Below, one piece after another: positions 1-55,475 of a stretch of DNA of 64,000 nucleotides. A program made the position numbers and the translations under genes. A model generated the notes under the pieces. That model was not told the DNA's origin and did no database searches. It saw only the letters and a list, made by a program, of their open reading frames with translations. The DNA is taken from contig CP142461.1 of NCBI GenBank assembly GCA_038049695.1, positions 25,179,001 to 25,243,000 on the forward strand, read 5' to 3'. Within the stretch, counting starts at the first letter, position 1. The number at the start of each line of letters is the position of its first letter. Source of the DNA: Cinnamomum chago. Lineage: Eukaryota > Streptophyta > Magnoliopsida > Laurales > Lauraceae.

Positions 1-6
1 ATATTC

Positions 7-16699: not shown

Positions 16700-17275
16700 A
16701 ATACTCCTCTCAAATTCGTGCATAATCATAAGAGCACTTTCAGCCCCCTTGTGCAAGAGTTGTACAAGTCATCATTGTTAGGGATTTTGTATTTGCAATT
16801 TGATGGATGCATTTTCACTTTAGCATCATTTGAATTTTCCCACATGCATTGTTTTAGAAAATCTTGAAATCTAGTTTTATACATGCATTGGATTTTAGAC
16901 TTGTAGAATTAATGATTTATGCATGTTTTGTTTCTAAACTTGGATGCATTTGTTTTAGAATCCAAACTCTTTTGAAAACCTAATTCTTTGTGCATTACTT
17001 TTGAGAAATCAAATTGAGGATTTAGGTTTACGCCTTGCATACTTTCATCATTTTCAGAATCAGTTTTGTATGCATTCAAATGTGAAAAGAGTTTTATGAA
17101 ATCAAGCAAGCCTTTGGTTTTAAAGTTTTGAATCATTTTAGGATTTTTATGATTCATGTTTTTAAACCCCTTAGAATGATTTAAAACATGTTTCCAAGCT
17201 TGGTTTAGTGGCCCAAAAATCCCCTCCAAGAAAAACCTTCTAATGTGGAAAAAATAGGATTTTTGGTCCCAGGCA

Positions 17276-17460
17276 GTCGACCTGCAGTGTGGTAGGTCGA
17301 CCTGCCCAGGGACCCAGGTCGACCTGCCACACTGCAGGTTGACTGGGCTCCTGAAGCTCCAACGGTCATTTTTCTGACCGTTGTGTGTAGCAGGTCGACC
17401 CCCCCTTTGCTAGGTCGACCTGCGACTAGCCGTTGGACTGTTTTTTGGTTTAAAAACCAT
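17276..17460 (+). promoter_or_regulatory. U3 promoter module of D (5' LTR)
   Basis: GTCGACC-type words occur near 17276, 17295, 17317, 17393 and 17413. Two exact matches to the mitosis-specific activator consensus YCYAACGGYYA are present: TCCAACGGTCA at 17358-17368, and its reverse-strand form TCCAACGGCTA at 17427-17437. A TATA-like GTTTAAAAACC follows at about 17448. MSA sites are bound by three-repeat MYB proteins in plant G2/M genes; use here is inference. Confidence 0.65.
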
Positions 17461-18085
17461 TCTTTTCCCATCTTTTTCAAGGGGCTTGAACCATGAACTT
17501 TTGAGACCATTTTGGAGCCAAAGAAAGGGGAAGAAGTTGGAAAGGCTAGAGGGTTTTTTGGAAATCAAATGGTTGAGTTTTAAAAAGGTACATCTTACTT
17601 GTCATTTTGATTTCCATTAAAATTAGAATCTATGCGTGTTTAAATGTTTGTATTTTCTTTTATGCATGATTTCTAGTTTGTAAAGAGATGTTTAGCAAAC
17701 TCAAAATCATCTTTGGTAAATTAGATTGGTTTGCAAACTCTCTTAACTAAATCACATACATTCTTAGATCTTATTATTCATACAACTTGTTTAGTTCATT
17801 TCTTCAAAGTTGTTTGAATCTTTTATGTGATTAGTTTTATCTTCAATCATCATTTTCTAAGCTTTGATTTTAAAATGCATCAAGCATTCACTTAGGAGCT
17901 TCATTGTAGAAATTGATTGAAGTAAAGCATTCATACACTTGTGCACACACTTTAGCTTGTTTTAGTGTATGTTTGTAATTTGTTTTAAACTTTCATATTA
18001 GCCTATTTTAGAGGCAAATACATTGTGCTTAAATTGTATCTCTTAGAGTGTTCTTTTGTGAAGACACCTTCTTAGAGAAATCTTT

Positions 18086-18250
18086 ATTTGTAAAGGTTAT
18101 TGCTTAGCCTAAGAAAAGCATTGTGTAAAGGTTATTGCTTAGCCTAAGAAAAGCATCTTGTAAAGGTTATTGCTTAGCCTATAAAAGCACATTGAGAGGT
18201 TGTTGTTTAGCCTAGAAAAATAACATTGTAAGGGTTATTGCTTAGCCTAT
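18086..18250 (+). repeat. About 33-bp tandem repeat in the D 5' LTR (five units)
   Basis: Units contain GGTTATTGCTTAGCCTA followed by AAAAGCA variants. The fourth unit is changed (GGTTGTTGTTTAGCC). The same repeat, in reverse, is found in LTRs A, C, E and, more diverged, Z. Copy number differs between LTRs. Confidence 0.8.
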
Positions 18251-18521
18251 TGAAAAGCATAAATAGTGGAAATCCGGTGGGGTGATTGGATCACAAGCCG
18301 GTAGTGGACATAGGCATTGAGGCCGAACCACTATAAACATTTGTGTTGTGGTGATTGCTTTTGTGGTGATTGTTTATAGTAGCTTCCGCATATTGTTTGA
18401 TTAATCATCACATGTGACTAGTTTATGTTAAGAAGTTAAAATTTGTTAAAATTGGTCATAATTGTAGCTCACCCTATTCACCCCCCCCCCCCTCTAGGGT
18501 TAGGATCCCAGGACTTTCAAT

Positions 18522-18534
18522 TGGTATCAGAGCC
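18522..18534 (+). promoter_or_regulatory. Primer binding site of D (initiator tRNA-Met)
   Basis: TGGTATCAGAGCC lies two bases after the 5' LTR. This word is the usual plant LTR-element complement of the 3' end of initiator tRNA-Met. The same site is found in E and in the gypsy element. Confidence 0.9.
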
Positions 18535-18623
18535 TCGTGCTCTATCTTATAGGATCAAGTGTTTGGAACTCTTGATTAGGTGTAGAAAAAACCTAGAGTA
18601 AAAAACCCTAGAGTTGTCCTTTC

Positions 18624-20051
18624 ATGAAAATCATTTGAATGGATTCCACTATGATAGATAGTTTAGATTCTTCTGTAGATTCTTCTTGACCCCTCTGTCT
18701 TCCTTCTAGTGGAGATTCAAACACTCAAATTATTGAATCTCAATTTGATTTAAAAGAAGAAGAAAATGAATATAATGAAGATGAACTTCAACAAGCATAT
18801 GAAGAATTATACACATTTTCTCTAGAACTTAATAAGAAAAACAATAAATTAAGAGAAGAATAAAAAAGACTAAACAAGGAGCTAGTCTCTTCAAAAGATG
18901 AACTTAGAGAGAAAGAAGAAGTAATAAATTGTGTAGAATCTAAGTTCATGATCTCTTTAAATAACCTATCTAACATTCAAGATGAACTAAAAGAATTAAA
19001 GATGGGTTATGATAATGTCAATAAGGAAAATTTAAATCTAAGAGATCAAATAAAAAGGCAAGATGTAGACATTGACAATTTAGAATCCAAGTTGATTAAA
19101 AGTAAGTTAAAAACCTTAGAACTTGGATCTAATGTTGTTAATGAACTTAATTTCAAATTAAAACTTGCCAATGAAGAGCTAATCAAATATAAGGAAATTG
19201 AAAATGAACTTTCAAAAGTCAAAAATGAAAATTCAATCCTTATAACCAAAGTCACTCAACTTGAAGGGTATAAACAAAAGTATGAGTGCAAGTTTACCCA
19301 AAGTGAAGAAAGACTTGAAAAATTATTTAGATTGGGTAAATCTAAAGGAGATAGGACGGGTCTTGGATTTAATAGGAATATGTCACATGACCCTAAATTC
19401 ACCAACACTTTTGTGAAAGGTGAGTCCTCTTTCTCTAGCACTCTTTCTCCTTTGCCCAAAACCAAATGTAATTATTGTGGCATTGAAGGGCATTTTACGT
19501 TTGAGTGCAAACTAAGAAGAAGAAGCCATGTGTCTAAACCCATTTTTGAACTCAAGAAGGAAGAATCTAAATCTATGAAGGGTAAGACACTAAGAAACAA
19601 AGAAGACTCCAAAAAGATTAAACAAGTCAAATCATTTAAAATGGAGTCTCCTAAGATAGATTCTAAAAAGTTCAAACAAGTTAAACCAAGCTTAAAAGAA
19701 TCTATGAACAAAAAGCTTCTCAACCTATCTCCCTTATATCAACCCATGAAAGAACTTTTGAAGAAAGTAACAAAGTTAAATTTAAAATTCAAAAGTCAAG
19801 TAAAGGGAGAATATAAGAAGAAAAGAAAAGTGAATCAATCCCCAAAGAAACAAACTCACCAACATCAAAAGACTAATCACCAATCTAAGCTAAATTTAGT
19901 CAAATCTAAATATCATGGTGATAAGTTTAAATTGAAAATTTATCAAGTCAAATCTCCTTTAGTTGATGAGAATTCTAAACTAGACCTCAAAGTTCAACCC
20001 ACTCAAGACCTTAGGTGGATTCCTAAAGTTATCTACTTAGACAAACCTTAA
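18624..20051 (+). pseudogene. gag: Gag-like gene of element D, inactivated by early stops
   Basis: The reading frame from ATG 18624 lines up with the intact 528-residue ORF of element E but has stop codons at its fifth codon, about 20 codons later, and near 18860. An open stretch from 18948 (367 residues) remains. It holds a long coiled coil (MISLNNLSNIQDELKELK onward), a zinc knuckle CNYCGIEGHFTFEC and a very lysine-rich tail ending ...RWIPKVIYLDKP. The coiled-coil unit of about 49 residues that is present twice in E occurs once here. The usual copia Gag N-terminal domain is not recognisable. Probable ancestral role: RNA-binding structural protein of the particle. Confidence 0.82.
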
Positions 20052-20067
20052 GGCCTTGAACCTTCTT

Positions 20068-21857
20068 GACCAACCTATTCTTTATAGTTAAATCTCTTTG
20101 TTGGTCATGTTGCATTTACATTTTGTTTCTCTATAGTTACATCTATTAAAATGCATTGTTTCTTTATGATCAATTGATTTTGTTTTCATGCACCATTCTA
20201 AGTTACATATCATGGTTTTCAAAATCATTTGATTATAATTTCATCATGATAGATTTGCTTATTGCTCATATTTAGTTATATGCCTTGCATTGCATTTCTA
20301 TACATGATCAATTGATTGTGATTTCAAAAGCTTTTATAGCTAGACTCTTCATGATCAATTGTTGTTGAATCATTTGTGTAGATATCTTGGTAAGATTTTT
20401 TGAACAAATGATTTGAATCAATTCAAGTTTTTCCATGGATTTCTAAGTTATACTTTTTTATGGAAAACCATTGTTTTGAAAAATCAACTTGTATGTGTCT
20501 CATTTAAGTTATATCTTTTAAAATACAATGTTGAAAATTGATCTTCAAAATCATTCTTTTTACGCTCATTGTTGGATTTTGTTTATCAAAATGACTTGAA
20601 GATTGGTTGAATGGAAATGCTCTATAACCTCATTAGTTATAATCTTCTAAGCATGTTCCATGTTCTCATTTCCTTTTCTTTTGGTTTCATTATCTTAGAA
20701 ATGGAAATGTGTGTTGTTTGCATCCTTGCTTATTTGTTTACATTCTTTTTTTTTTATGCAAATGACTATTGGTTCCATGTATGGTTGTGATCTTAGTAAT
20801 ATTTGTAGAAACCATACTAGAACCCAAATCCATCCTCTATGCTTTCTAGTCATATTCTTTTTGGATGGTTATGATGTTGATTCATGTATTTTCTCTTAGT
20901 GATATCATCTTTATACATGTTTCAACGTCATAGTAGTGATCTTAATCATATGAAACTCTTTGAAATCCATTCCTCGTATTTCTATATGTTTGATGGATAT
21001 CTTAGATGTTGAATTCATATGATTTTGACACTTTGGAAATTGCATGCTTTACCAAGTCATATTCTTTTGCATTGCAATTTACCTTGTTCATCACTATGTT
21101 CATTAGTCATATCATTATAAGTGATGAATATCCATTTATGTTGCTTTATGGAATTTTGTGTTTGTCACATCCTTGCTATTAATCATATTGTCATATTCAA
21201 TTGGTTTCATTTAGTATAACTTTCCATTGATTTCATATCCAATTGGTATCTTATCTTGTGTATGTGATAGACCTTGTGTACATTGGATTGGTCTTGATTG
21301 TTATATGTTTACATTCCATTATCATCATAATGTTCATGTTTGCCACCTCACTTGCTCATATAGGTAAATCTCATGACCACCATGTTTATGTATTCATAAT
21401 CTTGGTTGATTATTAGTTGAGGTTGGCTTCATGTTTGAATTTCATTTCACTCAACTTGCACTTTAATAAGTCATATTTATTGATTGAATGAAATGATTTT
21501 CAAAACCTTCATAGCATATGCTTTCCATAGTTAGATTATTTGTTGCTATGATTAATAAACCCCATTGCATCATGGATAGCTCTAATTTGGATTTTTCCTA
21601 ATAGTTATATTTTTAAATCCATTTTAGAGTGATTGTGTTTAATAGACTTATCTTTAAATCTCAATTGGTATTCTTTGTTTTTCCAATTGGTATCCATGAT
21701 TGTTTTTCTCATTAGACCTTGCTTTCTTTTGGTAATTTGATCATATTGTGCTCTATAGTTAAATGAATCTAATCCTTTCCTTGAAGTTGACCCTCATTTG
21801 GTTAAACCATCTTCTCCTTGCACCAAATAGTTATATCTTTGTCAAATGTTTGACAAA
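20068..21857 (+). other. Chain of about 20 consecutive stem-loops (non-coding, element D)
   Basis: It starts 16 bases after the gag stop. Inverted-repeat arms pair in series. Examples: GACCAAC 20068-20074 with GTTGGTC 20100-20106; TGCATTT 20111-20117 with 20149-20155; AATCATTTGT 20368-20377 with 20404-20413; TTTTCCAT 20429-20436 with 20460-20467; 20541-20555 with 20589-20603; 20771-20786 with 20810-20824; 19-nt arms 20871-20889 with 20913-20931; AATCATATGAA 20944-20954 with 21014-21024; 21037-21047 with 21069-21080; TTCATCACT 21087-21095 with 21120-21128; 21442-21454 with 21484-21496; CATAGCA 21510-21516 with 21544-21550; 21580-21594 with 21615-21629; TTTGTCAAA 21838-21846 with 21849-21857. 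Many loops hold TAGTTATATC or a close form. Element E keeps the same series. Function unknown. Confidence 0.8.
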
Positions 21858-22433
21858 AGGAGAGAATGGATTGAGGGGGAGTGTAAACCTTTATAGGAAG
21901 TATTAGTTTTGATCAAATTAACCCTTGGATTGCCTTTGGACCCTTAGAGACTACTTCCATACATGATAACCTGTTATGATTTTCATTTTCAATTTCTTTT
22001 GTTAACAGGTGCTACTAATAGGTATTTTCCTTGTTTCATGTGTGTAGGTACCTTTGCAATTTAATGGCAAAGGGGGAGAGAGCATTCAAGTTCTCAAAAG
22101 GGTGAAGAGAATGTCCAAGATTCCTAAGGGGAGAGAGAATGCATATCTTGCCAAAGGGAGAGAGAGGCATGGTCAAAGGGGGAGAGCAAATAGAAGAAAG
22201 AAAGCTTGGGAGCTAAAGAAGATGCTTGGCTAAAGAAAGAAAGAAGAGAAGAAAGCTTGAAGAATGATCAAGCTCCAAGCATCAAGAAGAATGAAGAAAA
22301 GAGCCCAAGAGCACAAGCTAAGTGGAGGAGCATCCAAGAAGATTTCAAGACTTGTCCAGCTTAGGGGGAGCTGAAGACTTAGTGTGTTATTTCAATGATG
22401 AGTAAGTTGCCATCAAATTGCAAAGGGGGAGAT
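21858..22433 (+). promoter_or_regulatory. 3' region of D with repeated purine tracts and the polypurine tract
   Basis: After the last stem-loop come several tracts resembling the polypurine tract: GAGGGGGAG (about 21872), CAAAGGGGGAGAGAGC (about 22069), AAGGGGAGAGAG (about 22118), CAAAGGGAGAGAGAGG (about 22153), CAAAGGGGGAGAGC (about 22174), TTAGGGGGAGC (about 22362). The last, CAAAGGGGGAGAT (22421-22433), abuts the 3' LTR and is the likely plus-strand primer. The words ACAGGTGCTACTAA near 22005 also occur, reversed, in element Z, linking the two families. Confidence 0.75.
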
Positions 22434-22933
22434 TGTTAGGGATTTTGTATTTGCAATTTGATGGATGCGTTTTCACTTTAGCATCATTTGAATTTTCACA
22501 CATGCATTGTTTTAGAAAATCTTGAAATCTGGTTTTATACAAGCATTGGATTTTAGACTTGTAGAATTAATGATTTATGCATGTTTTGTTTCTAAACTTG
22601 GATGCATTTGTTTTAGAATCCAAACTCTTTTGAAAACCTAATTCTTTGTGCATTACTTTTGAGAAATCAAATTGAGGATTTAGGTTTATGCCTTGCATAC
22701 TTTCATCATTTTCAGAATCAGTTTTGTATGCATTCAAATGTGAAAAGAGTTTTATGAAATCAAGCAAGCCTTTGGTTTTAAAGTTTTGAATCATTTTAGG
22801 ATTTTTATGATTCATGTTTTTAAACCCCTTAGAATGATTTAAAACATGTTTCCAAGCTTGGTTTAGTGGCCCAAAAATCCCCTCCAAGAAAAACCTTCTA
22901 ATGTGGAAAAAATGGGATTTTTGGTCCCAGGCA

Positions 22934-23090
22934 GTCGACCTGCAGTGTGGTAGGTCGACCTGCCACACTGCAGGTTGACTTGGCTCCTGAAGCTCCAACG
23001 GTCATTTTTCTGACCGTTGTGTGTAGCAGGTCGACCCCCCCTTTGCTAGGTCGACCTGCGACTAGCCGTTGGACTGTTTTTTGGTTTAAA
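22934..23090 (+). promoter_or_regulatory. U3 promoter module of D (3' LTR)
   Basis: GTCGACC words occur near 22934, 22953, 23029 and 23049. TCCAACGGTCA lies near 22994 and the reverse of TCCAACGGCTA near 23064. One palindrome unit present in the 5' LTR is missing. Confidence 0.62.
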
Positions 23091-23724
23091 AACCATTCTT
23101 TTCCCATCTTTCAAGGGGCTTGAACCATGAACTTTTGAGACCATTTTGGAGCCAAAGAAAGGGGAAGAAGTTGGAAAGGCTAGAGGGTTTCTTGGAAATC
23201 AAATGGTTGAGTTTTAAAAAGGTACATCTTACTTGTCATTTTGATTTCCATTAAAATTAGAATCTATGCATGTTTAAACGTTTGTATTTTCTTTTATGCA
23301 TGATTTCTAGTTTGTAAAGAGATGTTTAGCAAACTCAAAATCATCTTTGGTAAATTAGATTGGTTTGCAAACTCTCTTAACTAAATCACATACATTCTTA
23401 GATCTTATTATTCATACAACTTGTTTAGTTCATTTCTTCAAAGTTGTTTGAATCTTTTATGTGATTAGTTTTATCTTCAATCATCATTTTCTAAGCTTTG
23501 ATTTTAAAATGCATCAAGCATTCACTTAGGAGCTTCATTGTAGAAATTGATTGAAGTAAAGCATTCATACACTTGTGCACACACTTTAGCTTGTTTTAGT
23601 GTATGTTTGTAATTTGTTTTAAACTTTCATATTAGCCTATTTTAGAGGCAAATACATTGTGCTTAAATTGTATCTCTTAGAGTGTTCTTTTGTGAAGACA
23701 CCTTCTTAGAGAAATCTTTATTTG

Positions 23725-23962
23725 TAAAGGTTATTGCTTAGCCTAAGAAAAGCATTGTGTAAAGGTTATTGCTTAGCCTAAGAAAAGGATTGTGTAAAGG
23801 TTATTGCTTAGCCTAAGAAAAGCATTGTGTAAAGGTTATTGCTTAGCCTAAGAAAAGCATCTTGTAAAGGTTATTGCTTAGCCTATAAAAGCACATTGAG
23901 AGGTTGTTGTTTAGCCTAGAAAAACAACATTGTAAGGGTTATTGCTTAGCCTATTGAAAAGC
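23725..23962 (+). repeat. About 33-bp tandem repeat in the D 3' LTR (seven units)
   Basis: GGTTATTGCTTAGCCTA units run to the CATAAATAGTGG boundary. The two extra units lie near 23760-23830, where AAAGGATTG and AAAGCATTG variants alternate. Confidence 0.8.
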
Positions 23963-24642
23963 ATAAATAGTGGAAATCCGGTGGGGTGATTGGATCACAA
24001 GTCGGTAGTGGACATAGGCATTGAGGCCGAACCACTATAAACCTTTGTGTTGTGGTGATTGCTTTTGTGGTGATTGTTTATATTAGCTTCCGCATATTGT
24101 TTGATTAATCATCACATGTGACTAGTTTATGTTAAGAAGTTAAAATTTGTTTAAATTGGTCATAATTGTAGCTCACCCTATTCACCCCCCCCCCCTCTTG
24201 GGTTAGGATCCCAGGACTTTCAATCTTCCTCTCTTTCACCTTTGGTTCCTTAGAATTACTAGTAGGGTTTTCTCTTGAGGATTCCACCATCTTCTTGAGA
24301 AAAGAGATTTAATACGGGACATAGCGTGGAAGATCAAAAGGAGTTGAAGATTCTGAATTGGATAGTGAAGTTGTTCATCATCAAAGTAAAGAAATCAAAT
24401 TCTCCATTAGAGCACAACAAAGCTCCAAAGGTATATCTACGTCCTTGTATGTTGTGGATTTCGTGGTAGCATGTTTATGTGTTGTTTTCTATCTTATAAA
24501 TAGTATATGTTGCTGTACATGGCTATGAGATTGAGGGAATTACATCCTGGATTGGGTTTGTTGCATTCTAGACAATTGATCCCTGCATCAAGTGGGTCAA
24601 AAGTTTTTGAAACCTGTCTGAAGGCCCACCTATATTCAAACA

Positions 24643-25193
24643 GTGCGCACTTACCAATGATAAATCCGTTAATTGGCACAAGGGGATAATGTAGATAGAT
24701 TCCATCTTGATCATTGCATGTTCCCACAGTCCTACTACCATGTACCCAAGACACCGAGGTGTTGACCTACAGTTGGCCTCACTCAGTGGTGACTCAAAGC
24801 AAATGAAAAGATAGAAACTTGAGTTCATCAATGTCTCAGGATTGAGAGCCTATTGCTAGGGAATTATGAGAGCGATCCTTAAATGGAGACAGTATTTGAT
24901 AAGGTGCTTCTCATGGTCCTTCAATACATCCAATGTACCAGCACTATGATCCAGAATCTTACATTCTGATGGTCGAGACAAATCATACTATCTCATAGTG
25001 ATCAAAGTACTGGAACCTTGTCAGATGAGATGCCCAATCTCATCACTGGTTGTGAAGATATTTTAAGTATAAGATTTGTGACACATATCTCCCGTATGTG
25101 GATCTCATCCATATACATATATCACATCTAATATACTAATGGGACCCGGTTTATCTCATGAACCATTATGTCATATATATTGGTCATGTGCAT
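24643..25193 (-). mobile_element. LTR B, third piece
   Basis: Reverse complement of 15550-16105 of the + strand LTR (for example CTTACCAATGATAAATCC). It resumes LTR B directly after the end of the + strand copia element and stops at TGTGCAT (25187-25193), where the gypsy insertion begins. Confidence 0.78.
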
Positions 25194-27178
25194 TGTCACG
25201 CCCCCAAACCAGAACCTCGGGGGCGCGAATGGGATTAAGCATAGTTATATTTTTCTCCCAAGATCCGCGTGTGTGAAGACAATACATTCCAACATGTTCT
25301 GAATATTTCGCGGAAGCTTTCGTGGCGTGGCAACCCGGAGTCCGTGGCCATCGGATTCCGCTTCGTCCTCAACCTTTAGCATATAGCTATTATATCAAGA
25401 ATCATATCAGACTGGAGTAAACCATCACAACAAAGTACAGGGCTGACAGTAACAGGATATTACATTCCCATATATGTTCAAGTTACAAATTAACAATGTA
25501 CATTAATTAAGAATCCCAAGAAAAAGCCTAATAAAAGCCATACAACAATAAGCTATTAACCACTACCCCAAATATGACGTAGCTCCGATGTCAAGCTCAA
25601 TGTCTACATGACATAGCCGACAAAACAACCTGCAAAACATGGCTCCACAACCAACAAAAGCACTCATCTTGGGACGAAGAAGTCTGGACCTGAGTACCAA
25701 AAGTAGTGGGTCAGACACGACGGTCTGGCAGGTGGATAAAATGATAACAAATATACTGAAGAATAAACATATGATAAATCATGCTATTTGATCAAATGCT
25801 GCATATAATTACACGGTTGCAAAATCGTAGATCTCTGACAAAACATGTATTCGTTTCAAGCATGGGTAAAACATGAAGATCTAATAAAACATATGTTCAT
25901 TTACACCATCTATAAAAGCATAGATATTGGACAATCGGGTGTTCGTCTAAAACATGCATGAATATAATGGTATGACAAAACAACGTTCATTTGAAACTTA
26001 GGTAAAAGCATAAGTATTCAACAAATCGGGTGTTCATTTAAAACAATGTGTAAACAAAGAATTCTGACAAAACTAATGTTCATTTAAACATATTTCAAGT
26101 ATGGATATTTAACATATCGGGTATTCATTTAAAACAGGTATAAACATAGGAATCTGGCAAAACACGTGTCATTTAAAACATATTTCAAAGCATGGATATT
26201 TAATAATTCGGGTATTCATTTAAAACATGTGTAAACCTAGGGATCTGACAAACCAAATGTCATTTAAAGCAAAGCACGGATATTTAACAATTCGGGCATT
26301 CATTTAAAACATGTGCGTGTACAAAGAACAGTAAATAATATAATAATAACAACTGAATTCACCTTGGAGAATATTAACACTTGTTTAAATAATAACTTTC
26401 ATAAAGGAAATGGATCATTTATCGGAAACAAATAAGCAATATAAAACATGTCGGGTATCCAAGGAATCGGGAACTGGCAAGATGGCAATCACAAAAAGCT
26501 AAGTCCTCTATCACCGAAGTGACAAGAGTATAACGGGACGTTGGTCTCAGTCACACAAGGTGAGGAGACTCAACGCAAATCATATATACAATATAAATAT
26601 ACGGGAACGGGACCACGGTAGCGAACCGGGTATCGGGATGAGACCACGGTAATAACCGGGTTTCGGGATCCAAACTGCAGCTGGCGGGACGGGAGGGGAT
26701 CTCCAAGTCAGTGGATCAGACTGACAAGGTTATCCAAGCTTAGTGATGCTGACTCATAGGTCAAATAACAAATCGAGACATATGCAAGCAAATCAAGTAC
26801 AATAAATAAACGAGCAAGACGGGGGTGCTCAAAGGCACACTATCGTTTCATGTCGGGCAATACGTTTCGGGACAAATAACTGTTACTAGTGTAACTTCAA
26901 TGCTTTCGAGAAAACAAGTCATGTAATGTAAATCTTGGAGATGAAGGAATATAACGAACTATACCATTTCGGGAAAATATTGATTTCAAGATCTATTAAA
27001 GTGAATAGGGGTCCCGTATGTCGATTATTGAAATGACTTGGTACTCCTTGAGTTTGAAGACATTCCGGGCTCCTTATGCACTTCGGATTTTCAAAACTTC
27101 GAATGAGATCTTCGTGATATGGTTTCTTCCTCCAATGTTCTCGTACAATGCTTAATAAATGTCCTTGACATAGAGAGG
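25194..27178 (-). repeat. LTR of gypsy family X, partial
   Basis: 1985 bp from TGTCACGCCCCC to ...TAGAGAGG. Later parts (CTAAGTCCTCTATCAC, GGATCCAAACTGCAGCTGGCG) match LTR Y at 28099 and 28311, showing a family link, but the first third is different. The far end of this LTR type is probably 42286-42624. Confidence 0.7.
25845..26340. repeat. Minisatellite of 84-91 bp units in LTR X
   Basis: The word TCGGGT/C with TTCATTTAAAACA downstream recurs near 25935, 26026, 26117, 26208 and 26292. Each unit also has GGATCTGACAAAAC-like and GCATGGATATTTAA-like segments. About five degenerate copies; LTR Y lacks them. Confidence 0.75.
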
Positions 27179-27402: not shown

Positions 27403-30400
27403 TGTCGCGACCCCGGACCGGGAATCCCAATCCGGGATCGGGACGCTAATGAATGAGATTGAAAGGGATATACTTCGACAATAAATCACTTATTTAACTT
27501 CCCACAGGTGTCCGCGGTGAGGATCTCACAACCATCAATGAATATTTCTTTTAAGTGCGGAAGCGTGTAGTAAATCAAATAGTCAAGCCATCCTTGGTCA
27601 TAAAGGCAATAATACAGCTTTAAAGAAACTGTATCAGAATGAGCAATGATCTATAGCATGTTACCCAAGTAAGTTAAAGTTTATACAAATATCTTTTAAT
27701 TACATTTCCCAAAAATAGAGGCCAACAAAGGCCAATATACAAAATACTTCCCCAAAATGGTAAGGTCTCTCATAACCATCAAACGTCTACATGACGTCAT
27801 CGGCACGCCACTCAATCAACTGCTGTGGTTCTACAACCGCCTCCTCAAGCTCCTCCTCGGGATAACCAACGACGGGACCTGGGTACCAAAGAGTAGGTCA
27901 AACACGACGGTTTGGCAAAAGGACGTAATTATAAAGACAATATGGAAATACATGAATTTACCTTCAAAACATGCAAACCTGTTTAAATAACAATTTCTAT
28001 GAACGTGATAAAACATTTATCCAAATACAAGGATGCAATGTAAAACATGTAAGGTGACCAAGGAAACGGGAAACAAGCAAGATGGCGACCACAAGAAGCT
28101 AAGTCCTCTATCACTACGGTGATAGAGCAAGTACTAGGCACTGATCTCAGTCACTCGAGGTGAGGAGAAACAGTGGATCTCATATAAATACATATACATA
28201 TATAATACTATACATGAGACCACGGTAGCGAGCCGGGCATCGGGGACCACAGTAGCAATCTGCGGCATCGGGACAAGACCACGGTAATGACCGGGTAGCA
28301 GGATCCAAACTGCAGCTGGCGGGACAAGAGGGGGATCTCCAAGTCGGTGGATCAGACCAACAGGGTTATCCAAGCTTAGTGGTGCCGACTCATAGGTCAA
28401 ATACAACCGAGACACATGCAATTAAATCAAGTACAAGAAATAATCAAGCGGGCAAGACGCGGGTGCTCAAGGGCACACTATCATATCAAAAGGTGCAATG
28501 CACTTCGGGTCAAGTAACCATTCCAAGTGTATAACAATGCTTTCGGGAAAACAAGACAAGTAGTGCAAATCTCGGGATCAGTAAAGTACTGTAAGCAATT
28601 GACATTTCGGGAAAATATCTATTTGAAATGGATAGGGACCCCGTATGTCGATCACATAACAATTTGGTACTCTTTGAGTTTAGGGACATTCCGGGCTCCT
28701 TATACACTTAGATCTTTTCAAAACTATGAATGAAATCCTTGTGATATGGTTTCTTCCTCAAATGGCCTCACACAATACCTAATAAATCTCCTTGATATGG
28801 AGGGGTTCCCAAAGAATATCCCCAATGCGTTGAAACAGTCGAACGTTGTCCCAAACATAACCTAGGCCGGACGACCCGCATCGCTCGAGCAGACTGTAGG
28901 GTTCGCTCGAGCGAGTCGCTCGCTGGGAAGGTTGTCTGGGTGAGTTCGCTCGAGCGAACTCATTGGGTCGTGCGGTTATTTAAATGCGTTCGAGCGAACA
29001 ACTCACTGGAATGAGTTCTGGGATGACCGCTCGAGCGAAAAAGGGTGCGTTCGAGCGACCAAGCCACTGGAATGCTCCGAACCCTTTCTGGACAGGTCGC
29101 TCGAGCGAAGTGTCATGGTCGCTCGAGCGAACTGTCCAGGAACAGATTCCGGACCAGTTCAGCTCCTCTCTATTTCTCCGTTTTACAACCTCCTTTTTGC
29201 CCTTCTTACACATCAAATGAGGAGTCTAAAACCCCATTCCAACTACTTCAAATCTCCAACCATATCCATCCCATTCTCCTCCATCAACCATACATTGAAA
29301 ACAAGGAAAAAGGGAGAAGGAAACCATTTCACAATATGTGCATTTGAAACAAAACAAGAAAGAATTAAAAGCTATGATCAAACACATCTTTGTAATCATA
29401 AATGCACTAACAAGGCTCTTCATGAGCATTTATTTCAAAGCAAGACAATAAATAGGCATGAGAGAGAATTAATGAAACCAACCACATTTCTCACAAAACA
29501 TTAAAAGCTCTAAAAGATCATATTATCCACTTGCCTCAAGTCTTCTAACAATTGAAATCAAGCTCTGACAAGTCTCCCAAGCAAGGAATCCAAGCTATGA
29601 CAAAAATCCCCAAAACAAACAAACCCTAAAAGAGTCAAAACCATGAAATAGCAAGGAAACCTTCCAATAATAAAGGTGGGGCTTCTCTATGGCCAAAGGA
29701 CTACAACTCTAGAAGATGAAGGGGAATACTTACTTGCAAGGTCCTCTAATGGCAATGGTAAGCTCAAAGGAAATCTTGAAATGGATGGTTTGCTCCACAA
29801 AAACTATTGAAGGAAAGCTCTCAAGGAGATGAAGAAGGTGATGGCCTCTAATCTCCTCTTGGTGCAAGTTTGGGAGTGGATTGAGTGATGGAAAGCAAGA
29901 AGAAGAAGGAGTTGCTCACAAAGCCCTAGTTCTCTCTCTTGTGCTGGAAAATGACAATGGAAGGGAAGGGTCTCCTCTTGTAGCAAGTGAGGAGTGGGCT
30001 CCACCACTAACAATCTACTTAGGCTGAAATCATCTCTCTCGGGACCTCGGATGAATTCGACGAAGAAGGAAGAAATGTTCGTCGAAATATCTAGTTTCCA
30101 AAAAGTATAGGTTTCGCGGTTTTCGGGAATATCAAGTTTTGGGTACAGATTTAGTGTGCAATGACTGTTTTACCCTCAAGGCTATGAAATCGGGTTTCGG
30201 GATCTCAAACGGGGACGGGATCAACATGAAAGTTGTAGGGATCATCAAAACGAGTAAAACGGGATTAAAATCATGAATGTAAAATCTCCGATAAATTCTC
30301 AAACAAAATGCAATGTCATGCAAAAAGGAACCTCCAAAGGGTCCTACTAACACAAGGCAATCAAAACTCTCCAACACTAATACGAAAGCTATACCAAACC

Positions 30401-30487
30401 CAACTAAGCCAAAAACACTAATCAAGCTTAGCACTAACACGCAACTTAATTAGCACTAATCGGGTTCACTCGGGTCGGGGTCTTACA
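27403..30487 (-). repeat. 3' LTR of gypsy Y (left side)
   Basis: 3085 bp, from TGTCGCGACCCCGGACCGGG to GGGTCGGGGTCTTACA. The first 245 bases are nearly identical to 42042-42286. It lies directly beyond the polypurine tract of the minus-strand element. It contains a GC-rich palindrome cluster at 28884-29132. Most of the rest (29151-30487) shows no recognisable feature. Confidence 0.82.
28884..29132. promoter_or_regulatory. Cluster of TTCGCTCGAGCGAA-type palindromes in LTR Y
   Basis: About eight copies of a CTCGAGCGA core lie near 28884, 28904, 28946, 28989, 29028, 29049, 29098 and 29120. The most complete, GTTCGCTCGAGCGAAC at 28944-28959, is a perfect 16-bp palindrome. A TTATTTAAATG word at 28977 could be TATA-like on the minus strand. 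By analogy with the copia LTRs this may be a U3 control region; direct evidence is lacking. Confidence 0.55.
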
Positions 30488-30503
30488 TCCTCCACCCCTT
30501 AGG
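30488..30503 (-). promoter_or_regulatory. Polypurine tract of gypsy Y
   Basis: On the minus strand CCTAAGGGGTGGAGGA directly precedes the LTR start TGTAAGACCCC. The pol stop codon lies within this tract. Confidence 0.75.
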
Positions 30504-30580
30504 GCATTTGGTCCTCCAAATGAAATATAAGACTCACCTCAGGTAAAAGATGTGGATATTTCTTCTGCACTTGGTCTCAT
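30488..30580 (-). pseudogene. pol: Last about 30 codons of gypsy Y pol, separated by copia Z
   Basis: The minus-strand frame continues the chromodomain-like tail interrupted at 37228. It reads ...KKYPHLLPEVSL... and stops in the polypurine tract. The 5 bases CTCAT (30576-30580), with CTCGT at 37223-37227, are the duplication made by Z. Confidence 0.7.
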
Positions 30581-32153
30581 TGAAAGTCCAAGATCGAATC
30601 CTAGAGGGGGGGGGTGAATAGGGTGAGCTCAAAGTCCTAGACCAATTTTAATTCTTTTAGCTTTTAAGTCTCTTATGCTTTGAAGGAGAATAAAGAAATC
30701 AACCAAGGGAGCATAATCCATAAAAAGAAAGCATAAAGACAATCACCATAACACAATCACATATAGTGGTTCGGCCAAATTGCCTACATCCACTCCCCGG
30801 TACACCTACCGGTATTCACTAACTTCAAATAAGGTTTAGGATCACTTCAAACCTTACAAACTATGCTTTTCAAGGCTAAGCATAAACCTTTACAACATAT
30901 GCTTTTCAAGGCTAAGCATGAACCTTTACAACAAGGAACTTTTCTCTTAAGAAATATGCCTAATAATGCATGGATAAAGAGAACAAGGAAATGCAATGAA
31001 GTGCCTCTTAATAGGCTAATTTGAAAGTGAAAAACTCAAGTTCTAGAACAATGCATGTGAATGACAAAGTTTATGTGAAATGCATTTACTAGAAAGTTAC
31101 TCTTTCTCTTTTTGAAAAGACACAATCTCAAATGTTTCAAAGATGATAAACATATGATTGAGAAAGAGTGAGTTGTCTAACACATGAGTTGGACAATGTG
31201 AAATATCTTGTTTTGAAAGAAGACAATTTAAAGTCTAGAAGGTTGATGTTGAAACAAGAAAACAAACTTCATGTGAAACAATGACAACATGTTGTATTCA
31301 TGGAATATGAGATTACTAAAGTATTAGACATGTTATGAAAGACAACATTTTAATATGAAAGCAACTTGTTAATCATGCATTGAGAAGAATCAAAGATTTG
31401 AACCAAAACATGATTGTAAAAAGACTATGGATTAAAGGAAGCACACCCATTTGAAGATCAAAGGTTCATTTAGTGGAATGGCTTCATAATCCCTTTGAAA
31501 ATGCTCTTGAGAAGTTGCTTAGCCTTGGCCTCAAAGGTCTCTCAAATCTCAGCAACTTTCTCCAACCAAAAAGCCACTTTTTATAAAGATAAAGTTGCCA
31601 ACGGCTAGTTCTCGGTCGACCTAGAAACAGGCCTCGGTCGACCGAGAAAGCACAACGGTCATATTTCTGACCGTTGGCATGTTACAGTTCAGGTTCTGGA
31701 AAAATGACTTCCAGTTGTCTCGGTCGACCGAGACCTGTATCTCGGTCGACCGGCGACACTGCCGGGAACAGCCCAGATTTTTGACAAATTAGAGAAACTT
31801 GTAACTTTTGAGGGCACCTTCCAAGGGACTTTTAAACACATCTACCAAGCATTAAATCATGACTGAAAGAAGATGAAAAGTGAGATTTTAAAGCCATGAA
31901 AACTCCCAAACACAATAATGAATTTAAAGTTAGAAACTTTGGAAAGCTTGGAAGGATTTTTGAAATCAAAGACTCCAAGAACTGAAGAGTCAACCTGAAT
32001 ATGAAAACCATGCATTACAATTGATAAAAACAAAGATTTAAGAAGTTGAAATATGCATGATGATCCTATGAATAAAACCATGTATGAATGAGAGGACAAG
32101 CTTATGAAAGTGAATGCATCCTATCAAATTGCAACAAAACAAAAGCTCTAACA
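30581..32153 (-). repeat. 3' LTR of Z (complete)
   Basis: 1573 bp. It has a nine-base G-run at the U5 end, GGTTCGGCC block, TGCTTTTCAAGGCTAAGCAT units (30862-30940) and promoter module at 31578-31757. The shared part differs from the right LTR by a handful of substitutions seen by eye, suggesting a fairly recent insertion. Confidence 0.87.
31578..31757 (-). promoter_or_regulatory. U3 promoter module of Z (left LTR)
   Basis: TATA-like CTTTATAAAAA (minus strand, about 31577-31587) lies next to CAACGG (31599), then GGTCGACC words near 31613, 31636, 31731 and 31744, with AACGGTC...GACCGTT at about 31653-31675. Confidence 0.65.
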
Positions 32154-32166
32154 ATCTCCCCCTTTG
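32154..32166 (-). promoter_or_regulatory. Polypurine tract of Z
   Basis: Minus strand CAAAGGGGGAGAT abuts the LTR start TGTTAG. It is identical to the tracts of D and E. Confidence 0.85.
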
Positions 32167-32543
32167 CAATTTGATGGCAACTCTTGAAGCTTGAACTCTC
32201 TTTCAATCTCCTTTCAAACTTGAGCAGCAACAACTTTGGATATTAAGGAGCTTTTGGATAATTAAGGAGCATTTGGATCTTTTGGAGCTTTGGATTTTCC
32301 TTGCGGGAGCGACGACAAAAGACGACCAACCTAAAAGCTAACACTCTAGCCAAAGCTACTCCCCCTCAACATAGGCAACCCTTGAATCTTCTCCCCCTCA
32401 ATTGGAGAACTCTCTCCCCCTTTGACATCTAATTGCAAAGGAGCCTGCCCATTAAAAATAAAACACATAACCTTGTTAGTAGCACCTGATTATAAGAGAT
32501 ATATAAAAATAAGATAAGGAACAGGTGATTAGCCAACAAGAAT

Positions 32544-33602
32544 TTAAAACACAGGGCAAGGGCCAATGCCCAATTGATGTCTCAAATTAATGAAACGATC
32601 ATTTCCAAGGGGTTTAGTGAACAAATCAGCCAATTGGGTATCTGTTGGGATAAACAACAACTCAATGGTGCCTTGGTCAGCATGATCACGCAAGAAATGA
32701 TAGCGAATGTCAATGTGCTTAGTGCGAGAGTGCTGAACAGGATTTTTTGAGATACTGATGGCACTTGAGTTGTCACACATGATAGGCATGCATTGTTGTG
32801 GAACATTATAATCTAATAAAGTTTGTTTCATCCACAACAGCTGGGCACAGCAGCTACCTGCAGCAATATATTTAGCTTCTGCAGTAGACAAGGATACATA
32901 ATTTTGCTTTTTGCTATGCCAGGCTACTAAGCAGTTCCCTAAGAAATAGCAGCAACCACTAGTGCTCTTCCTATCATCTATAGATCCTGCCCAATCTGCA
33001 TCACTATATCCAATTAATTGCAGAGTTGAGTCATGAGGATACCAGATACCATAATGAGAAGTCCCATTAATATATTTTATGATACGTTTAACAGCTTTAA
33101 TGTGAGACTCTCGGGGGTCAGATTGATACCTAGCACATATTCCAACGCTAAACGAGATATCAGGGCGGCTAGCAGTGAGGTAGAGAAGGCTTCCTATCAT
33201 GCTCCTATAAAGTTTTTGGTCAGCTTTTTTACCCTGAAGGTCACTAGAGATTTTAGTAGTGGATCCCATAGGATTGCAACTAGTCTTAGATTCTCCTAAG
33301 CCAAACTTTTTCACTATTTCTAGAGCAAACTTGGATTGACTAAGAAAGATACCTTGATCAGTCTGACTCACTTGTAATCCTAGAAAGAACTGAAGGGGTC
33401 CTACCAAACTCATTTCAAAAGTGGAGCTCATTAACTTAGAAAATCCTTGAGCAAGAAGATCAGATGTTGATCCAAAAACAATGTCGTCAACATATATCTG
33501 AGCAATGAGAATATCTTTATCAACCTTTTTAATGAATAGAGTCTTGTCCACATTCCCACACTCATATCCATTTTCAAGTAAGTGACTTGTCAGCTTTTCA
33601 TA
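32544..33602 (-). pseudogene. pol: Z pol, second part: reverse transcriptase catalytic end and RNase H
   Basis: About 350 codons in the same frame as the upstream pol ORF but separated from it by one TAG (33603-33605). The reverse transcriptase catalytic motif YVDDIVFG is at about 33475. Then come copia landmarks TASRPDISFSVG and HIKAVKRIIKYINGT, and RNase H with GYSDADWAG, STSGCCYFLG, LSTAEAKYIAAG and CDNSSAISISKNP. The tail ends LADLFTKPL...GIGPCPVF. Everything is open and looks functional downstream of the stop. 32167-32543 between this and the LTR holds purine tracts and ACAGGTGCTACTAA-like sequence shared with D. Confidence 0.85.
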
Positions 33603-35922
33603 CTAGGCTCTTGGTGCTTGTTTCAATCCATAAAGAGCCTTTTTCAACTTAAAAACATATTCTGGGTGATGAGGATCCTCGAAGCCTTGAGGTTGAGTAA
33701 CATACACATCTTCCTCAATTTCACCATTTAAAAAGGCACTCTTCACATCCATTTGAAACAGTTTAATCTTCATGCTGCTGGCATAAGCTAATAGTATTCG
33801 TATAGACTCCAATCGAGCTACTGGGGCAAAGGTTTCCTCAAAATCAATTCCTTCAACTTGAGCATACCCTTTGGCTACAAGTCTAGCTTTGTTCCTTATA
33901 ACATTTCCTGATTCATCCAGCTTGTTTTTGAAAATCCATTTGGTGCCAATTTGGCTTTTGCCTTCAGGAAGAGGTACAAGATCCCACACATCATTCTTTC
34001 TAAACTGATTTAATTCATCTTGCATGGCATCAATCCATTCAGACTTGGTTTCTGCTTCAAAGAAGTTCTTGGGCTCAATTTGTGAAACAAAGGAATAGTG
34101 AGCACACAGATTATGAACCTGTCTTCTTGTCATGACTCCTTTTGAGATATCTCCAATGACATTATCCAAGTTGTGATTTCTTAATAACTTTGTGGGCATG
34201 GTAGGGATTGAGGGAATCTCTTCTTCAATTTCAAATGAAATAGGCTGCTCAACTGAGGTCTCTTCTTCATCATGAGGAGCTTTCTTAATTTGATTAGTCT
34301 CATCAAAGACAACATGAGCTGATTCCATGACAGCCATTGATCTGAGGTTGAACAATCTATAAGCCTTGCTTTTATCAGAATATCCTAAGAAGATCCCTTC
34401 ATCAGATTTGGAATCGAACTTTTCAAGCTGCTCTCTATCTCTTAAAATATAGCACTTGCTACCAAACACTTTAAGATAACCCAGATTTGGTTTTCTTCCA
34501 AAATACAGCTCATAAGGGGTTTTGTTAGTGTTCTTTGTCAAATAAACACGGTTAATAAGGTAGCATGCCGTATTGATAGCTTCTGCCCATAAGTTGCGCG
34601 GGAGATTTTTCTCATTAAGAAGGGTTCTGGCCATTTCTTGAATAACTCTGTTTCTTCTTTCAGCTACTCCATTTTGCTGGGGAGTTTTTGGAGCAGAGAA
34701 TTGATGACTGATCCCATGGCTTTCACAGAAGTCTGCAAATCTTTCATTTTCAAATTCGCCTCCATGATCACTTCTTATCTTCTTAATTTTGCAGTCCTTC
34801 TCAACTTGAATTTTCTTGCAAATCCTTATGATATTATGTACTGCATCTGATTTTGCATGAAGAAAGGCTACCCATCCAAATCTTGAATAATCATCAACCA
34901 TCACTAGGATATACTTTCTCCCACCAATACTCTGAACAGGTGCAGGTCCAATGAGGTCCATATGAATGAGTTCAAGGGGACGAGAAGAGGATATATATTT
35001 TATACCTTTAAAACTTTTCTTGATCTGTTTACCCATTTGACAAGCCTTGCACAATTCAGATTTGTAATCATCTAATTTGGGTATTCCTCTGACAATTTCT
35101 TTCTTTGATAAGATCCTCATCAGTTTGTAATTAATATGTCCCATTCTTTGATGCCACAAATGATTTTCTTGAGCTTTAGACATTAAACACATGGATTCAT
35201 TCTCACAACATTCTTCTATGGTGTAGATGTTATCTTTAGTACGTAATCCAGTGAGTAGTACTTTGTGAGATTTCTCATCCAGAACTTTGCAAGATTTGCT
35301 ATCAAAAACAACTTTGTTTCCTTGGTCACACAACTGACTTATGCTCAAGAGATTATGCTTTAAACCATCCACAAGGAAAACATCTTTTAATGTAGGCATT
35401 TGATCTCCTCCAACACAGCCTTTTCCTATAATATGAGCTTTCCGATTATCTCCAAAAGACACATTACCTCCATCATAGTCCTCAAGAGTGATAAATCTAG
35501 AACGGTCTCCAGTCATATGCTTGGTGCAACCACTGTCCAAAAACCATCTAGAGTTTTCTTTAACTTTAAGAGCGGTTTGAGCAAAAAAATTCTTGACACT
35601 TTTCTCTTTTTCAATCCATGTAGCCTTAATGAAGGAAGAGGTAGAAGTCTTGGGAACAAACTTGAAATGAGCTCTAAAACTATGATTTTGAGACATCCTA
35701 AACTTAAAAGGACAGTTTGGAACTAGATGACCTATTTGATTGCAAAAATGACAAGTCCATCTAGAGGAAAAGAAGATTTTACCTATAGGTTTGAGGTGAG
35801 TCCTAGTATTATGTTGAAAGCTATTCTTCTTGCTACTAGAGGAGCATTCAAAACCTATACCATTCTTGTTACCAAAGACTTTATTCAAGCCTAACATTTG
35901 ATAGAATTTGTCATTGCCTAAG
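33603..35922 (-). pseudogene. pol: Z gag end, protease, integrase and first half of reverse transcriptase
   Basis: The open frame starts in LTR sequence (about 48 residues of spurious N-terminus up to 36065) because of the 5' deletion; genuine Gag starts near [11 protein letters not shown]. Counting from 36065: zinc knuckle [14 protein letters not shown] (105-118); protease [11 protein letters not shown] (174-184); integrase zinc region HLWHQRMGH...CKACQMGK (303-346); integrase D370, D433 and E469 in the D-x-D-35-E arrangement; reverse transcriptase from EWIDAM (676) through [11 protein letters not shown] (726) to [13 protein letters not shown] (769-781). It ends at QAPRA-TAG, where the family has tryptophan (33603-33605). 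Motifs are of the Maximus/SIRE type of copia. Without the 5' end the element cannot transpose by itself. Confidence 0.87.
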
Positions 35923-37222
35923 GTAAGCATAAACCTTTTCAAGGCTAAGCATAAACCTTTACAACATATGCTTTTCAAGGCTAAGCATGAACCTTTACAA
36001 CAAGGAACTTTTCTCTTAAGAAATATGCCTAATAATGCATGGATAAAGAGAACAAGGAAATGCAATGAAGTGCCTCTTAATAGGCTAATTTGAAAGTGAA
36101 AAACTCAAGTTCTAGAACAATGCGTGTGAATGACAAAGTTTATGTGAAATGCATTTACTAGAAAGTTACTCTTTCTCTTTTTGAAAAGACACAATCTTAA
36201 ATGTTTCAAAGATGATAAACATATGATTGAGAAAGAGTGAGTTGTCTAACACATGAGTTGGACAATGTGAAATATCTTGTTTTGAAAGAAGACAATTTAA
36301 AGTCTAGAAGGTTGATGTTGAAACAAGAAAACAAACTTCATGTGAAACAATGACAACATGTTGTATTCATGGCATATGAGATTACTAAAGTATTAGACAT
36401 GTTATGAAAGACAACATTTTAATATGAAAGCAACTTGTTAATCATGCATTGAGAAGAATCAAAGATTTGAACCAAAACATGATTGTAAAAAGACTGTGGA
36501 TTAAAGGAAGCACACCCATTTGAAGATCAAAGGTTCATTTAGTGGAATGGCTTCATAATCCCTCTGAAAATGCTCTTGAGAAGTTGCTTAGCCTTGGCCT
36601 CAAAGGTCTCTCAAATCTCAGCAACTTTCTCCAACCAAAAAGCCACTTTTTATAAAGATAAAGTTGCCAACGGCTAGTTCTCGGTCGACCTAGAAACAGG
36701 CCTCGGTCGACCGAGAAAGCACAACGGTCATATTTCTGACCGTTGGCATGTTACAGTTCAGGTTCTGGAAAAATGACTTCCAGTTGTCTCGGTCGACCGA
36801 GACCTGTATCTCGGTCGACCGGCGACACTGCCGGGAACAGCCCAGATTTTTGACAAATTAGAGAAACTTGTAACTTTTGAGGGCACCTTCCAAGGGACTT
36901 TTAAACACATCTACCAAGCATTAAATCATGACTGAAAGAAGATGAAAACTGAGATTTTAAAGCCATGAAAACTCCAAAACACAATAATGAATTTAAAGTT
37001 AGAAACTTTGGAAAGCTTGGAAGGATTTTTGAAATCAAAGACTCCAAGAACTGAAGAGTCAACCTGAATATGAAAACCATGCATTACAATTGATAAAAAC
37101 AAAGATTTAAGAAGTTGAAATATGCATGATGATCCTATGAATAAAACCATGTATGAATGAGAGGACAAGCTTATGAAAGTGAATGCATCCTATCAAATTG
37201 CAACAAAACAAAAACTCTAACA
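35923..37222 (-). repeat. 5' LTR remnant of Z (right side)
   Basis: 1300 bp matching 30858-32153. The U5 end, with G-run and GGTTCGGCC block, is deleted. The join to gag is at TGCCTAAGG/TAAGCATAAACC near 35922. The promoter module is retained at 36666-36826. Confidence 0.85.
36666..36826 (-). promoter_or_regulatory. U3 promoter module of Z (right LTR)
   Basis: Same order as 31578-31757: CAACGG, GGTCGACC repeats and an AACGGTC...GACCGTT inverted pair. A TATA-like TTTATAAAGATA word lies at about 36649. Confidence 0.63.
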
Positions 37223-37227
37223 CTCGT

Positions 37228-41885: not shown

Positions 41886-42041
41886 GATGCTGCAAAATAA
41901 ATTGTTAGCACATGATAATATAAGGGTCACACATTGCTCACACGATACTAGCTAACGAAAGATCTAACGAATCCTCGCCACGTCCTTAGGATTTCTAGTT
42001 TCTTTTAATTGCTTGAAACACGTTTCGCTCTGATACCAGTC
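41886..42041 (-). promoter_or_regulatory. Gypsy Y leader with primer binding site (initiator tRNA-Met)
   Basis: Minus strand TGGTATCAGAGC at 42027-42038, three bases inside the LTR that ends at 42042. About 140 bases of untranslated leader separate it from the Gag start. Confidence 0.88.
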
Positions 42042-51412: not shown

Positions 51413-51425
51413 ATCTCCCCCTTTG
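51413..51425 (-). promoter_or_regulatory. Polypurine tract of E
   Basis: Minus strand CAAAGGGGGAGAT directly upstream of LTR start TGTTAGG; identical to D and Z. Confidence 0.87.
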
Positions 51426-55473: not shown

Positions 55474-55475
55474 AT

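Follow-up and report, generated by a model that had tools for sequence, protein, structure and literature searches.

The 64-kb window analysed here (64,000 nucleotides on contig 11 of the Cinnamomum chago genome, which was searched as 1.06 Gb in 14 contigs) contains two copies, D and E, of a long terminal repeat (LTR) retrotransposon in which gag is followed by a chain of stem-loops kept by purifying selection on pairing. Element D (positions 16774–24224, plus strand) has LTRs of approximately 1.75 kb (5′ LTR, 16774–18521, ends taken from alignment and accurate to a few bases; 3′ LTR, 22432–24224, recognized by alignment to the 5′ LTR) that are 96% identical, with 16 substitutions in 1723 aligned sites. 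Between them lie a primer binding site read in the sequence (TGGTATCAGAGC; 18522–18533), which we take to match initiator tRNA-Met, a gag open reading frame (ORF) of 367 aa with a CCHC knuckle (18948–20051), the hairpin array (20052–21862) and a 3′ region (21863–22431) with several AGGGGGAG purine runs, the last of which is at the 3′ LTR and presumably represents the polypurine tract (PPT). Element E (49478–57253, minus strand), found by self-alignment of the window, has LTRs with 2 differences in 1776 sites, a gag ORF of 528 aa (53789–55375, minus strand) and an array homologous to that of D (52026–53788, minus strand, lower end approximate; 87% to D). It is a very recent insertion and sits between two blocks of tandem satellite. 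The gag of D is interrupted upstream, given that E encodes 528 aa. Pfam zf-CCHC_3 matched the gag of D with an E value of 0.00079, under the curated cutoff, as was the CCHC match of E. From the primer site, the purine run and the look of Gag only, the element lacking pol, we assume a Ty1-copia (SIRE-like) lineage for D. No ORF of at least 120 aa occurs in 20052–22431 of D; the element has two flanking LTRs and gag as its sole protein gene, and is without protease, integrase, reverse transcriptase (RT) and RNase H. From their gene content, D and E are thus predicted to be non-autonomous LTR retrotransposons coding Gag alone, of the type described in the accessible text of PMC9784723 as terminal repeat with GAG domain (TR-GAG), a class of non-autonomous plant LTR retrotransposons. 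An earlier note on this DNA had said that the stem-loops replace pol; pol is indeed absent between gag and the 3′ LTR, but the replacement of a former pol is an interpretation.

Folding analyses with a pair span of up to 110 nt gave the array of D (20052–21860) a minimum free energy of −391.3 kcal/mol, versus −284.1 (s.d. 11.9; lowest, −307.0) for 100 dinucleotide shuffles (z −9.0), and that of E (approximately 52001–53788) a z of −9.4 (24 shuffles), confirming the earlier claim of a non-random chain of stem-loops after gag. When hairpin loops were forced to at least 12 nt, the D array resolved into 27 hairpins arranged end to end (26 with at least seven pairs, one unstable), so that the count is nearer 27 than the roughly 20 first proposed. 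Ungapped inverted repeats formed 16 hairpins in D, versus 9.0 ± 2.4 (maximum, 14) in 20 shuffles. The 3′ region is not hairpin-rich (21861–22431, z −0.9).

Comparison of D and E showed that the stems are constrained. Because the two LTRs of each element are nearly identical, both insertions are recent, and D and E diverged largely before them, while their lineages were still being copied; divergence gained during copying makes the pair suitable for a test of selection. With the structure of D read on E, 63 of 1019 paired and 120 of 705 unpaired sites had changed (6.2% versus 17%; Fisher test, 1.7e-12), and the reverse reading of the E structure on D gave 66 of 979 versus 117 of 745 (3.3e-9). 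Circular shifts of the structure mask matched the observed difference in 0 of 1808 cases (D) and 2 of 1762 (E). By hairpin, the stem was less changed than the loop in 19 and more changed in 7, and one hairpin is absent from E. The same held in an alignment of 41 copies (what remained of 43 after removal of two identical tandem copies), in which diversity was 0.037 in paired versus 0.121 in unpaired columns of the alignment's own structure. With single-copy stems detected by scoring G.T and A.C alike, it was 0.050–0.071 in stems versus 0.121–0.134 in loops for all 11 references (alignment-based single-copy structures are limited to columns occupied in half of the copies and leave out the extra part of gag-less copies). 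Variants common to at least three copies of this set occupied 40 of 590 paired versus 462 of 1381 unpaired columns. Gag is also under constraint, as variants common to at least 3 of 30 copies (including three identical tandem copies) were found at 41 of 314, 31 of 315 and 74 of 315 sites at codon positions 1, 2 and 3, respectively; these figures and those of the array come from different copy sets, and the array structure was chosen for conservation. A coding control showed no difference between stem and non-stem sites (70 of 419 versus 57 of 347). In copies of a related sister group (described below), stems were spared in five of six directed comparisons (shift test, 14/425 or better; Fisher <0.015 in three). 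Constraint on stems is seen between D and E, across the 41 copies and in the sister copies.

The loops share a motif. Scoring hairpin loops plus 4 nt on each side and counting matches to TAGTTATATC from 8/10, we found it in 12 of the 27 loops of D (null mean 1.6, maximum 7; 500 shuffles) and in 14 of the 38 loops of L009, a relative without gag (null mean 1.8, maximum 7; 500 shuffles; 2690-nt stretch, LTR end and leader included). The motif was derived from D, and the count in D is therefore partly circular; that in L009 is less so, given that L009 holds approximately 720 nt where D has 288, much of it without counterpart in D. The motif lies close to mid-loop (0.51 in D, 0.55 in L009) and has a prevailing orientation at 7/10 or better (19 forward and 6 reverse in the 27 loops of D; 22 and 10 in the 38 loops of L009). 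It is degenerate, by eye about WAGTTAHATY. At 8/10 or better it occurs at 15 places in the D array (20085, 20134, 20273, 20506, 20634, 20794, 20847, 20897, 21104, 21298, 21361, 21528, 21602, 21756 and 21828), 14 of them inside hairpins, whose spans together make up most of the stretch. Of the positions first listed for it, 20848 was off by 1 (20847) and 21109 by 5 (21104). Genome-wide, the exact 10-mer occurs at 13,278 places, versus 3,614 for a reversed control, and all twelve stretches chosen for motif clusters (L009–L020) match D. Arms taken from separate hairpins resemble one another no more than their composition would lead one to expect (0.27 versus 0.31). D thus has a series of stem-loops with a loop motif in common and stems that can stand in for each other, as expected of multiple packaging signals. 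Better conservation of the motif than of the rest of the loop is a trend and no proof; in hairpin 1 the motif core is near-invariant and its flanks are variable, and across hairpins some of the highest diversity falls on the bases directly flanking the motif (0.195 on the 5′ side, 0.222 on the 3′ side).

The array belongs to a large family. With the array as query, 6842 first-look candidates were obtained, and 36 of the best 40 places (self included) cover the query whole at ≥90%. Seven loci (L009, L012–L015, L019 and L020) are gag-less and run from the primer site through a leader of approximately 210 nt directly into the array; L016 is too incomplete for classing. A query from L013 (leader and first array part, 1544 nt) gave 22 whole matches among the best 40, self included. 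L009 has 32 hairpins over the homologous stretch versus 27 in D, and its part mostly without counterpart in D (3925–4638) also folds beyond chance (z −4.3). A genome search with a Gag homologue as the query gave ORFs of 451–534 aa in 130 of 130 rows, some with internal stops (best 85 of 8306 candidates). An autonomous gag–pol partner was not seen among these best 85 of 8306 candidates, all of which carry gag-sized frames only, and it may lie in the wider genome. Of 12 post-gag stretches taken, L053, L061 and L062 have a D-like array (two of these with a deletion; L062, z −10.4), and L051, L052, L054, L055 and L057–L060 form a related sister group by blastn. L056 follows a gag of the 470-aa type and has no blastn similarity to the D array or the sister copies. 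Six aligned sister copies share hairpin 1 (one wobble in L051, one mismatch in L052); approximately 450 nt are then followed by a region that, in the two copies checked with Pfam, codes a Transposase_32 frame (L051, 1291–2199; L057, 1257–2201), a domain linked to ORF1 of Athila elements in the accessible part of PMC11728184. The first 431 nt of the sister stretches gave z −3.0 (L052), −4.8 (L057) and −3.1 (L059), and the Transposase_32 region −4.3 (L057), −2.1 (L051), +0.7 (L052) and −0.9 (L059). A protein search found two Gag homologues, P0001 (71%) and P0002 (64%), in which Gag ends at the same place; the CCHC knuckle of P0002 is above the Pfam cutoff (24.4 versus 20.8). Searches of viral contigs and of genome contigs found no relatives outside this genome. 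Some copies stand in same-strand series on the genome's contigs, at C2:41000878–41014107 (spacing approximately 5.7 kb), C1:52392662–52406190 (5.9 kb), C1:18726131–18736859 (5.3 kb), C9:32407325–32428123 (6.4 kb) and C1:39944117–39954355 (3.4 kb); such regularly spaced series are perhaps LTR-sharing tandem arrays.

Individually, the hairpins of D (all plus strand, from the hairpin list) begin with hairpin 1 (20067–20107), which has the stem TGACCAAC/GTTGGTCA and the loop motif TAGTTAAATC and recurs at 4151 genome places (7-bp stem without mismatch plus TAGTTA in the loop; control, 0). They continue with hairpin 2 (20111–20155) and hairpin 3 (20164–20238; 23 bp), in which pair 20166–20236 is AT in 25, GC in 7, GT in 4 and other in 3 of the 41 copies, the GC copies being six gag-less ones and L045. 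Hairpins 4 (20243–20308) and 5 (20309–20361) precede hairpin 6 (20365–20416), which is missing from E according to the D/E alignment, and hairpins 7 (20418–20479) and 8 (20484–20534) lead to hairpin 9 (20536–20608), in which three pairs are changed on both sides in exactly the seven gag-less copies (loosely aligned here, in the 41-copy alignment). Hairpin 10 (20611–20661) has a different yet pairing stem in L009. The middle of the array comprises hairpins 11 (20665–20711), 12 (20713–20766), 13 (20771–20824), 14 (20830–20868), 15 (20869–20933), 16 (20935–21032; 31 bp), 17 (21035–21083), 18 (21085–21130) and the weaker 19 (21142–21216). Hairpins 20 (21234–21307) and 27 (21814–21862) have stems more changed than loops between D and E, and hairpin 21 (21335–21433) is branched in the free fold. 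The remainder are hairpins 22 (21434–21504), 23 (21509–21551; closing pair AT in 20, TA in 15 and TT in 6 copies), 24 (21579–21630), 25 (21661–21690) and the doubtful, unstable 26 (21762–21798; ΔG +0.4).

Three other accounts of the array were rejected: a coding function, as it holds no ORF of 120 aa; microRNA precursors, as Rfam matches were under threshold and mostly within a palindrome of the LTR; and simple tandem duplication, because the arms of different hairpins are unrelated. A further idea, that the loops would pair with the anticodon loop of the initiator tRNA, was set aside. Elsewhere in the window, tandem satellite with a repeat step of approximately 320 bp by self-matches occupies 1–6389, 43847–49472 and 57284–64000. 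A Copia-type pol element (30866–37222, minus strand; LTRs 99.4% alike) has pol over two ORFs (32544–33551 and 33603–36065), and a Gypsy-type element (37107–41930, minus strand) codes aspartic protease and RT at 39027–40589.

We consider the array likeliest to be a cis-acting ladder of stem-loops, maintained by selection, through which Gag would recognize and package the RNA, at a rough probability of 0.4. The earlier note had offered packaging by a helper, RNA stability, a ladder for Gag and a source of small RNAs as candidate roles; of these, we infer packaging or Gag binding as the best fit because relatives without gag retain the array. What stands of the earlier note's interpretation is that an LTR element coding only Gag carries a non-random, conserved chain of stem-loops and that its stems are under constraint in further members of the family. 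The array would act in cis within the full-length transcript, where many low-affinity repeated sites would collect Gag and thereby direct the RNA into virus-like particles that rely on the Pol of a helper; the loop would be recognized, and the stem would merely hold it. The stems are slow to change over time and unrelated across hairpins, and the loops are fast and alike, a combination that may point to a bounded motif on replaceable stems. More doubtfully, the ladder could be a modular, portable entry ticket into Gag particles, with approximately 27 rungs in gag-coding copies, approximately 32 in gag-less ones, which as parasites of the parasite would have lost gag, and a few in the sister copies before their second ORF. 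Ordered with the likeliest first, the explanations are Gag packaging, a transcript-wide structure, a host-protein site, a role in complementary DNA (cDNA) and a by-product of mutation.

Several results weigh against the Gag ladder, some of them general and others favouring particular alternatives discussed in turn below. The first eight genome places of the 10-mer (L001–L008) include none within such an array, the first 431 nt of sister copy L051 fold as expected by chance (z −0.7) and one of the six sister comparisons lacks stem conservation. The covariation that the earlier note had wished to see is present only in part. When D/E-like copies were compared with gag-less ones, standard pairs were kept in excess over within-hairpin permutation (at most 3 in 1000) in 7 of 10 directed comparisons (the remaining three, 37, 46 and 169 per 1000; the D/E-like group includes the truncated L010, in which gag was not seen), but D and E compared with each other alone gave no such excess (269/1000 and 303/1000), and a tree-aware test modelled on R-scape, with 12 simulated null alignments, found one significant pair in 292 (E < 0.05; the pair that closes hairpin 23), a test of low power here as the stems hardly vary. 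With the E structure read on L009, for example, 442 pairs were kept (null 427, maximum 439), with 12 Watson–Crick double changes versus 4.5. Watson–Crick double changes also exceeded global permutations, mostly because changes cluster, which makes local permutation the fairer test. Some stems appear rebuilt around a similar loop, such as D 20611–20661 and L009 4043–4089. RNAalifold on the 41 copies gave 295 pairs, in which 98.7% of the cells are standard and ten pairs have at least two two-sided changes; this structure was chosen from the same sequences and is thus not used as proof. Four of these ten (20541–20603, 20543–20601, 20554–20591 and 20667–20709) differ in exactly the seven gag-less copies, loosely aligned there. 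On 14 diverse copies it kept hairpin 1 (seven pairs, one one-sided change, one break) and also a 6-pair helix over doubtful columns.

The strongest alternative, somewhat unlikely in our estimate, is that the whole RNA is selected as a hairpin chain that resists decay or silencing or compacts, the array being the part free of coding constraint and the motif incidental. Hairpins also fill the LTR and gag, and so the earlier placement of their beginning after the gag stop captured the array but not the excess folding of the 5′ LTR (z −11.0) and of gag (z −6.7 in D, −6.9 in E). Paired sites were spared at gag third codon positions between D and E (9.1% where paired versus 19.1% where not, P = 0.014; no significant difference at positions 1 and 2) and in the LTR (22.7% versus 28.7%, P = 0.005), where pairs were also kept above local permutation (3/1000 and 0/1000); given this, a chain may run along the whole transcript, with the array as its freest part. 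In 120-nt windows, mean z was −1.5 for the D array, −1.2 for the E array, −1.1 for D gag and −1.4 for the LTR, versus +0.4 for pol, +0.1 for gypsy and +0.2 for satellite, with −0.6 at 24300–27000 and −0.5 at 28900–30800. The motif, moreover, was not significantly better kept than other loop columns, with diversity 0.109 versus 0.137 in the 19 hairpins at 7/10 or better (P = 0.10) and 0.111 versus 0.130 in the 12 at 8/10 or better (P = 0.64). Mere compactness, however, does not need mid-loop enrichment of a motif. Excess folding, expected over most of the transcript if structure is ordered on a genome scale, extends over the 5′ LTR, gag and the array but not 21861–22431, and a single palindrome (17270–17353) contributes a large share of the LTR excess. 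This palindrome is a 37-bp hairpin of about −67 kcal/mol built from repeats of AGGTCGACCTGC, and the sub-threshold matches to microRNA families fall on it.

Selection by a host RNA-binding protein, acting in export, translation or stability in the manner of a transport element and without Gag, would equally be expected to yield a loop motif on interchangeable stems and to preserve the array in gag-less copies. We regard such sites as unlikely, as no host factor or known site was found; in 16700–24300, searched for known Rfam families, all 13 matches up to E 1 were under the gathering score.

Slightly less likely again is a role for pairing in single-stranded cDNA or on both strands (for example in strand transfer, cDNA compaction or RT pausing) instead of in RNA. 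Relative to shuffled sequence, the D array folds about equally well on the minus and plus strands (z −10.1 versus −9.0). If plus-strand RNA were selected, G.U should be tolerated above A.C, and wobble-neutral detection in seven arrays showed no such excess (1580 Watson–Crick, 27 G.T, 32 A.C and 149 other; composition expects approximately 1.5:1). Variants shared by at least three copies favour G.T unevenly, with G.T:A.C of 22:24 to 26:11 over 12 copies (outer stems), 9:9 to 21:4 over 8 copies (pairs of probability 0.8; P < 0.05 in 3) and 12:12 to 22:7 over 11 copies (neutral stems). On the RNAalifold structure the split is 13 to 0, fading with single-copy structures to 35:19 for D and 26:30 to 35:12 over 12 copies. 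The best-matched test of wobbles comes from hairpin 1, in which one arm is the perfect reverse complement of the other: 5′-arm transitions that create them occur at 122 further places (control, 11), versus 83 (control, 7) for 3′-arm transitions that create A.C (binomial P = 0.008; 0.013 after control subtraction), a ratio that treats related copies as independent and is therefore suggestive only. The slight G.U excess in this hairpin and in most single-copy structures argues against a cDNA role, as does the prevailing orientation of the motif. The evidence from G.U is mixed, and the pairing is at most probably in RNA. Least of all do we favour a functionless by-product, in which template switching makes inverted repeats and single-stranded loops mutate more: inverted repeats in the LTR and gag, indels in loops and one count without strand preference would fit it, but template switching would not be expected to slow stem substitution (the D/E stem rate is approximately 2.7-fold below the unpaired rate), pol, gypsy and satellite sequences elsewhere in the window have no folding excess, and neither the 4151 places with the exact hairpin 1 stem nor the loop motif would be explained.

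To our knowledge, the selection of plant LTR retrotransposon RNA for particles, and what non-autonomous copies need for it, are poorly known. Here natural deletions did part of the experiment, in that copies without pol, some without gag too, retain the hairpins; a cis-acting signal is thereby directly testable in a laboratory plant system, and a hairpin chain with a shared loop provides a search pattern invisible to protein-based annotation. Titles and abstract openings of the mostly open-access literature yielded no description of such a hairpin array in retrotransposons, and no title among the matches listed reports ordered RNA structure in LTR elements. The gag-less relatives (L009 and six others) resemble LARD and TRIM elements in having LTR sequence, a primer site and internal sequence without a recognized gag, and differ from them in that the internal sequence consists of a hairpin array with a homologue in a gag-coding family; a LARD paper reportedly describes a conserved predicted RNA fold. 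Like the genome-scale ordered RNA structure of RNA viruses, the excess local folding of D spans LTR, gag and array; unlike it, D has one non-coding, almost all-hairpin block with a shared loop motif.

D resembles TR-GAG elements in its two LTRs, primer site, purine run before the 3′ LTR, single gag ORF and lack of pol. It differs in its hairpin array as far as the TR-GAG accounts consulted go, in which none is mentioned, the terms 'stem-loop' and 'secondary structure' not occurring in the accessible text of PMC9784723. The closest parallels to the array itself are the dispersed packaging signals of small viruses. According to the accessible parts of the reports, assembly of satellite tobacco necrosis virus prefers the loop sequence and is indifferent to that of the stem (PMC3593212), and hepatitis B virus has packaging-signal stem-loops with the loop motif RGAG (PMC7612645). 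As in both, the D array consists of many stem-loops with a common loop motif; those signals, as so described, belong to small virus genomes and were tested in assembly, whereas the hairpins of D form one chain, mostly with loops of 12–35 nt, and are predicted from sequence. If the Gag ladder is real, this portable array would be to retroelements what multi-site packaging signals are to small RNA viruses.

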